From assembly GCF_949628215.1 (NCBI RefSeq), contig NC_134279.1, forward strand, positions 54,920,266-54,984,265: DNA of 64,000 nucleotides. Reading direction: 5' to 3'. This DNA comes from Phalacrocorax aristotelis. Lineage: Eukaryota; Chordata; Aves; Suliformes; Phalacrocoracidae. The notes under the pieces are model-generated. The model saw only the letters and a program-made list of their open reading frames with translations. It did no database searches and was not told the DNA's origin. The position numbers and the translations under genes are program-made. Shown here piece after piece: positions 18,101-21,100 of the stretch. The stretch's first letter is position 1. Each line of letters starts with the position of its first letter.

Positions 18101-21100
18101 TGCGTATTTAACACGACTTGATGATCACTTAAGTCACCACAAGAGAGACACTGTTAGAGCAGTTTTGGAACCCATACTTGCAGTTGAGGCTAGATGTGGG
18201 ATTTTCAGAACTGTCTGTAGACTGGCAAAGTAAACTGATAAGGTTTTCCATCTTAGATGAATTGTTGAAGGTAGATGAAGTGCTTTGAAAAAATCCAAGC
18301 TCATAAATGTACTTGTGAATTAAAACACTAGTGTCTTTAAGATAAGGATTTCACTTAGTACATTGGATGTTTGAAACCCAGGTATCCCAGCTTTGAAATG
18401 TGCTATCAGAAAGGATCCAACTATTGGTGTTTAGGGTGCATTTCATAAAACTGACACAAAGTGGCTGGTAAAAACAGTTAATGAAGACATCAGTTTTTCT
18501 GCAATGTGTATATAATTAATGTTGATGGTGCTTTGTCGGTTGGATGTGGTCAGTTTAGATTCATGTGTGTTAGTTAAAGAATTTCATCTAATGTTTGTTG
18601 AAACAGTTGCTTTACATGTTACACTAGAGAAAATGTATCATAAGCATGCTGGTTTTAGTGTTTTGTCATCAGTTCGTTTATTTTTTTAATCAATCTCCCA
18701 TTAGAAAGAGAAATTATTTTAAATACTAGCTTTTTGATTAAAGCTTTTTTTCAGAGCTTGAATCAGTCTTTTACTGTTGGCAAATCTTATGTAATAAAAC
18801 ATTTTTCCCTGGTTCTAGAGTATCTATAAGTGTTTGTCCTCGTTCTTTCTAATTATATGTGTTTTCCTTTTTGCTAACCAGGAGCTGCAGGTAAGTTGCA
18901 GCCTGGTGCCCTGGCTTGTTCATCTGTTGTTGTCTGTGGTGTGTTTGTACTGTCTAGTCAGATAAATAAAAATGATTCTGATATAGTTCTAGATTAAATA
19001 TTGAGTTACTTTCCAAGAAGATATTAAAAATATTTCTACTTCATTTGCCATATATTTTAATTTATCTGCAAACATCATTTAACAAGGTATTTAAAATTTT
19101 AATAAAGGGCTGATTGAAACTCTGTTCATAATGCATTCAGTACTTGTGCTTTCTGTGTTGCATCTGTGTATTAATTTTATTATTTCAAAATTCGTACCTA
19201 CATATGTGTGCAAACTTTTTTATTACAGGGTGAAAGCATGGACAACTTCAACTGGGGCGTTCGTAGACGCTCTCTTGACAGTATTGACAAAGGAGACACA
19301 CCATCTCTTCAAGAATGTCAGTACTCTGGTAGCACACCCAGCTTGAACTTAACCAACCAGGAAGATACTGATGAATCATCTGAAGAAGAAGCAGCCCTGA
19401 CTGCAAGTCAGATACTGTCTCGTTCACAGATGGTAAGTTACTTTTCTGTGAAAGGGATCTGAGAACTTAAGCTCTCACTTTTACTTTTAATGGGCAAGTA
19501 TGGCTCAAACTTTCAGCCTAAGTGAACTAAAGAGGAACTAAATTAATGTGGCTAAGCTTCTTTTTCATAACATCAGTGAAGGGTAAGAGTTACTTCACCT
19601 ATAGGTGGTACATAACAGGGTTATAATTCTAGTACAACACACTTTTTTTTTTTAGTGTCTTTATACTGACTATATTTGTTTAAATATAAGCACAAAATTG
19701 CATGTGTTTATATATAAAGTGTGTGTCTTTGTGGATTCCTAGCTTCAAAAAAAACCCATAAATACTAATTAAGAACAAGAGCAGTAAATGATCCCGTGGG
19801 AGCCTCGGTTGTGTTTAACCTTTGAAATCGCTAATTTAATTGTGGGGTTTGAAGCATGTGTACATAAAACTGAGGAGAATCAAGAATGCTGGCCACTCAG
19901 ATGTGTCTTTGCATTATATAAATGAAATTAGGAAAAAATTGACTGGATGGGGAGCAGCAGGGATAGTATGCCACTTTCCAGACTTTAGGCAAAGTTTGTA
20001 TTAATATTGCCCATAACAAAGAGCTCTGCTCTTCAGTGTTTTCAGTCTAGCATTTCACCCGTGCCAAAGACCTTTGAGAACAAGACAGGAAATAATTTTC
20101 TGGATCCCAAGGGATAACTTCAAACTTCTCTTCAAAGTTAAATATTACAGAAATGCATGTGATGCTTGTAATGGTTTTGGTGTAAAGCTATTAAACTCAT
20201 AACATGTAAATAAATTCAAATAGCTAACCATACTGCAACAGCCTATCTCAAAACTAATGTATTTTTTCCCTGTAATCTATGTGTTTAATAAACTATGAAG
20301 AATTTCACGGGGTTTTTTTTTCTGTCTTAGTTAAACAGTGACTCTGCCATAGATGAAACAATATCAGATCATGCTGGTTTATCACTTCAGTCCCAAGATT
20401 CCACTAGCAGTGTGGGAACAGAAGAGGTGCTTCAAATCAGAACTGAGACCCCAAGTCTGGAGGCTTCTCCTCTAGATAACTGTAGCAACCAGCTGCCTGA
20501 GGTGGGGAGAAATGTGGGCTGGTGCATGGCTGATTTGGGCTCCTTCTAGTGTTTAGTAGCAACTTTGGCTTTCTTTTCAACTGAATTTTCATCTGTTACA
20601 CTGATTATTTGATTTGCTTTTAATATTTCTAACCTGTTGGAATGTTCTTACAAAATGTTCCCTCAGCATAGAAACCACATGGGATGGTCTGAAGGAACTT
20701 ACCACAGGTTAAAAATATTCTTGAAGGGCTGAAAATGATCATCTCGTGGTACAGAATGAAAATAGGCTAATATTCATGATGCTTTTACTTGATATGGTTG
20801 AAATCCTTCCTGAGCAACATTTTCTTTCAAATACTCCCCCCCCCCCCTTTTTTTTTTTTGCTTTCTTTGGGTTAATGTGATTGGTGCTATATGGGAATAA
20901 AACCTCAGGCCAGCTGTGTTAGCAGTTGGTTCCATTAAATAATCCTTTAAAAAGGACCACAGATGCTAGTGGTATACTTTTTGGAAAGGCCTGTGTGGAC
21001 TGAGACAAATTTCAAGCTAATGGCTGCCTGCAAATCTGTGAGTACTTCAGTTTCTTGATTTTTAAAATCTTCTGAGTAATTTAAAAATTAAAAAACTCAT

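Follow-up and report, generated by a model that had tools for sequence, protein, structure and literature searches.

Neural microexons that depend on SRRM4 (nSR100), for example in TAF1 and in protrudin (exon L), are the closest described relatives of the exon considered here, and as a kind they are already known. SRRM4 is described as recognising a UGC element that sits after the polypyrimidine tract and ahead of the exon, and as promoting inclusion (PMC5247714). Exons that depend on the eMIC are characterised by AG exclusion zones, a UGC close to the acceptor, and branch points of the CUAAY type (PMC8797185), and a layout of UGC with UC repeats is given for zebrafish (PMC12626420). FRYL itself has been reported as an SRRM4 target at the level of the gene, its splicing being named as SRRM4-regulated in a 2026 paper that cites Raj et al. 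2014 (PMC13387927). The available passage of that paper names no exon and gives neither coordinates nor length, so we infer that the exon meant is the one described below; the gene and the proposed regulator match.

In other literature the gene appears in different connections. The excerpts of PMC11445533 name FRYL only as a binding partner of PROM1, and those of PMC8535871 report that Fryl splicing changes in mouse trigeminal ganglia over a span of two exons, a change not identifiable as the exon described here. For FRY, narrow literature searches returned neither a microexon nor, accordingly, a pre-duplication age for one, and it may well be listed in database tables or supplements; fry is absent from the main text of two zebrafish microexon papers.

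The window, by which we mean the whole 64,000-nt stretch of DNA that was analysed (G000:C4:54920266-54984265, in a 1.28-Gb genome), contains a member of the furry family. Six furry exons were compared with Pfam: four match Fry_C, one matches MOR2-PAG1_C and one falls just under the cut-off for MOR2-PAG1_mid (26.6 vs 27 bits). The two exons on either side of the microexon match Fry_C at contiguous profile positions, which bears out the furry-family host that had been proposed. The insertion falls exactly between these contiguous positions, and the Pfam model therefore fits the skipped form. We take the gene to be FRYL rather than FRY on the synteny expected in vertebrates, and because the second paralog turned up on another contig. 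Among solved structures, the downstream exon gave a single match, which was not significant (E 0.34). The features of the region are as follows.

16422..16598, + strand: upstream FRYL coding exon, from translation, ending in GATGCAGAG before gtgaga; Pfam Fry_C 98-154
18831..18879, + strand: AG-free stretch of 49 nt ahead of the microexon acceptor, with a T-rich tract and CTAAT
18849-18853, + strand: CTAAT, a branch-point-like site with its A at -30
18872-18874, + strand: TGC (UGC) element, candidate SRRM3/4 site, from sequence; spacing identical in FRY
18880..18881, + strand: acceptor AG, score 7.47
18882..18890, + strand: 9-nt microexon GAGCTGCAG, Glu-Leu-Gln, phase 0, from sequence; FRY counterpart GAACTTCAG
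18891..18896, + strand: donor gtaagt, preceded by CAG, score 8.84
19229..19432, + strand: downstream FRYL coding exon, from translation, starting with GGTGAAAGC; Pfam Fry_C 155-221; FRY 74% identical
48508-49413, - strand: GC-rich ORF downstream of FRYL, without Pfam match
51802-52704, - strand: GC-rich ORF downstream of FRYL, sodium/bile-acid symporter family (PF01758)

We presume that the ORF at 48508-49413 is ZAR1-like, and that at 51802-52704 presumably corresponds to SLC10A4, which it fits by vertebrate synteny.

The microexon lies in an intron of 2630 nt and, as read from the sequence, is flanked by AG and GTAAGT. Translation across the junctions places it in phase 0, where it codes for Glu-Leu-Gln, making it an in-frame exon in the 3-27 nt range with canonical splice sites. 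The three residues (ELQ) lengthen an acidic linker 11 residues ahead of the motif RRRSLDS, which is also present in FRY. The coordinates, gtaagt donor, phase and tripeptide given in the original prediction were confirmed to the base by sequence and translation, and the UGC that it placed seven bases ahead of the exon is present, with taaccag between the TGC and the first exon base.

All acceptor and donor scores reported here derive from splice-site matrices entered by hand. By these scores, the microexon ranks first among 6306 pairs of an acceptor and a donor separated by 3-27 nt (+ strand of the window), with 16.3 bits vs 11.8 for the runner-up. Its acceptor (7.47) compares with 6.57 for the acceptor of each flanking exon, and its donor (8.84) with 5.58 and 6.68 for theirs; among the approximate starts and ends of FRYL and FRY exons (n = 38), four acceptors reach 7.47 and no donor reaches 8.84. 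The window contains 259 AG-N9-GT sites, and only 18882-18890 encodes ELQ. Alternative acceptors at 18885 (-4.1) and 18891 (-2.2) were rejected on score, and one at 18888 because no AG precedes it.

When the genome was searched with the protein sequence of the downstream exon, two places were returned: the exon itself and C1:25194763-25194960, the FRY paralog (74% identity). For the upstream exon, the alignment with FRY covers 63 positions, reaching slightly past the exon, with 57% identity. The FRY intron homologous to the one hosting the FRYL microexon carries the site GAACTTCAG at G000:C1:25191042-25191050, preceded by ctctgctacccag and followed by gtaagaat. It agrees with FRYL in its intron, its 9-nt length, phase 0, ELQ, the distance to the TGC and a GTAAG donor (GTAAGA in FRY), and the two base differences between GAGCTGCAG and GAACTTCAG are both synonymous. 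The site is the best of 872 candidates in the 9.7 kb that were examined ahead of the FRY exon, and it is the single one of 357 AG-N9-GT sites in the 90 kb around FRY to encode ELQ. The closest upstream AG lies 51 nt from the site in FRY, and the G of the corresponding AG lies 52 nt before the FRYL microexon. The FRY site differs, however, in its lower scores (acceptor 5.40 vs 7.47, donor 7.37 vs 8.84) and in having no match to yUnAy in the usual branch-point range of -20 to -40.

The surrounding introns are generally unlike. Ungapped identity between FRYL and FRY is 43% over the 60 nt upstream of the microexon and 37% over the 60 nt that follow it. Even so, when the introns are compared by blastn, the top match (E 8.8e-4) falls on the microexon, and for this reason the likeness appears to reflect retention under selection and not a recent gene conversion. 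A comparison of 18 approximate paralogous inter-exon gaps, restricted to candidates of at least 6 bits, gave four equal-length in-frame candidate pairs in two gaps; a pair of the same length and the same peptide occurred in one of the 18, namely the ELQ pair. These gaps are approximate introns, some with unmatched exons. The gap and exon-end sets were drawn from 19 of 36 tblastn rows, leaving out eight duplicates in other frames and nine retroelement-like matches, and the edges of the exons flanking the microexon were set by hand.

The split between FRY and FRYL presumably dates to the early vertebrate genome duplications. The exon is conserved between FRY and FRYL of one genome, and with this matching site it is very probable that the FRYL microexon is real, is under selection and predates the split. 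The same age is suggested by the distribution of the family given in a Xenopus paper, with fry and fryl in vertebrates and fry only in Drosophila, C. elegans, Arabidopsis and Saccharomyces (PMC6207768). Farther afield, the exact pattern had no match in viral_contigs and a degenerate pattern none in genome_contigs, while protein searches with the downstream exon gave 45 stretches fitting a pattern in viral_contigs and 234 stretches in genome_contigs, none of them confirmed.

Strong short acceptor-donor pairs do arise in long introns, and this is the point in favour of regarding the FRYL site as a chance, functionless resemblance to an exon. When dinucleotide shuffles were counted for in-frame lengths only, the FRY site score of 12.78 was reached by 12 of 1000 shuffles of the FRY intron (taken with seven extra exon bases), two of these with a TGC, and by 8 of 2000 shuffles of the FRYL intron. 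Because 12/1000 shuffles reach it, the FRY copy is unremarkable by score alone, and it is the shared peptide and position that count. Nevertheless, none of the 2000 FRYL shuffles reaches the score of the FRYL site itself (16.31; shuffle maximum 15.55), and of 5000 FRY-intron shuffles only 19 contain any AG-ELQ-GT site, one with a TGC at the same offset and none scoring as well. Together with the independent match of the paralogous intron in peptide, length, phase and TGC spacing, these counts make a chance origin very improbable. An equally slight probability attaches to the idea that the juxtaposed AG and GT form a recursive splice site for stepwise removal of the intron. The sequence CAG followed by GTAAGT can indeed be read as a zero-length site at 18890/18891, but the acceptor at 18891 scores -2.2 vs 7.5 for 18882, the intron measures just 2.6 kb and in FRY the nine coding bases persist, differing only at synonymous positions; a recursive site was rejected on these three grounds.

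The more serious alternative concedes that the microexon is genuine and holds that its inclusion is broad or is controlled mainly by RBFOX, PTBP1, MBNL or PRPF40A, and not by SRRM3/4. PTBP1 acts on microexons, and TGCATG is the RBFOX-type motif. Action on microexons is described for MBNL, QKI and RBFOX2 (PMC12064062) and for PRPF40A (PMC11463390). The FRYL donor is strong, and the strong splice sites could permit inclusion outside neurons. A TGC is also common near acceptors, being found in the acceptor region of 45 of 202 acceptor-like sites on both strands of the window, and taken alone it is weak evidence. Against control by other factors stand the TGC at the matching position in both paralogs, the closest AG at 52 and 51 nt upstream, the naming of FRYL as SRRM4-regulated in the passage cited above (PMC13387927) and, for RBFOX, the absence of TGCATG within 250 nt on either side of the microexon in both FRYL and FRY. 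On balance we regard control by these other factors, or broad inclusion, as unlikely, though clearly less so than chance or recursive splicing.

Dependence on SRRM4 or SRRM3 for neural inclusion is the reading that agrees best with the layout of the site. As in the microexons of TAF1 and protrudin, the FRYL exon is very short and in-frame, with a UGC in the interval from the polypyrimidine tract to the acceptor, and it has a long AG exclusion zone (52 nt) and a CUAAY-type branch-point-like site (CTAAT). It differs from them in its T-rich tract, in which a UCUC repeat close to the exon is not evident, while FRY has ATCTCTGC; its SRRM4 dependence is here a prediction. The genome has SRRM_C (eMIC) loci above the Pfam cut-off on C15 and C18 (two of the ten matches listed), whose sequences resemble SRRM4 and SRRM3, respectively. 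Given the UGC, the AG-free zone, the SRRM_C loci and the naming of FRYL as SRRM4-regulated, SRRM4/SRRM3-dependent neural inclusion is the best reading, with inclusion, tissue and regulator all predicted from the sequence. The SRRM4-type interpretation put forward in the original prediction is supported in part: its layout, with the UGC and the long AG-free zone, is present in both paralogs, and a brain-specific isoform with a bearing on dendrites would be a further prediction from it.

Overall, we consider it likely that FRYL has a genuine cassette microexon, older than the FRY/FRYL duplication, that extends the acidic linker in the Fry_C region by Glu-Leu-Gln, with neural inclusion presumably under SRRM4/SRRM3. 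Non-neural cells would skip the exon, since ordinary exon definition needs more than 9 nt. In neurons, SRRM4, SRRM3 or both would recognise the UGC lying after the polypyrimidine tract and ahead of the acceptor and would help the early spliceosome, leading to inclusion. Inclusion might then alter a contact made by the C-terminal region of FRYL near RRRSLDS, and ELQ may tune a phosphorylation-dependent or adaptor contact. A more far-reaching proposal, to which we give somewhat better than even weight, traces the ELQ switch to the one furry gene that existed ahead of the vertebrate duplication. Both FRY and FRYL would have retained it, with its UGC and with its amino acids unchanged, as one neuron-specific setting of the vertebrate furry family, possibly tuning a kinase or adaptor contact near RRRSLDS.

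That FRY and FRYL have both held a three-residue change ever since they separated implies that selection acts on a very small feature of the protein. Furry proteins have been linked to neurite growth (PMC6207768), and the microexon offers a testable handle on their neuronal specialisation. If the SRRM4 reading is true, loss of SRRM4 is expected to alter FRY and FRYL together. A 9-nt exon is easily missed in annotation, and since FRYL is linked to Pan-Chung-Bellen syndrome (PMC13387927), it could matter for the reading of FRYL variants in that condition.

Several further candidates were seen in the two genes. The second-best candidate in the window is the 6-nt ACAAAG at 35273-35278 (+ strand; score 11.8), which has a TGC ahead of its acceptor; it was rejected as a microexon shared between the paralogs because the sole 6-nt candidate in the matching FRY gap is unlike it. 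Two FRY gaps hold microexon-like candidates, with scores of 13.8 and 11.7, that have no matched partner in FRYL. These gaps match window positions 31942-40727 and 19433-26961 (G000:C1, joined L015-L023 53249-62789 and 39961-45679), and the candidates could be FRY-specific microexons or the edges of unmatched exons. A whole-genome scan with the pattern gave three matches, namely FRYL and FRY, from which the pattern was itself built, and TGCAGGACAGGAGCTGCAGGTGAG at G000:C2:7333187-7333210, which lacks TGCTA-CC. Lastly, the window has retroelement-like fragments at the ORFs 706-1137 (+ strand) and 8426-9448, presumably of CR1 type from their likeness, and the latter sits in a 2119-nt FRYL gap whose equivalent in FRY is only 77 nt.
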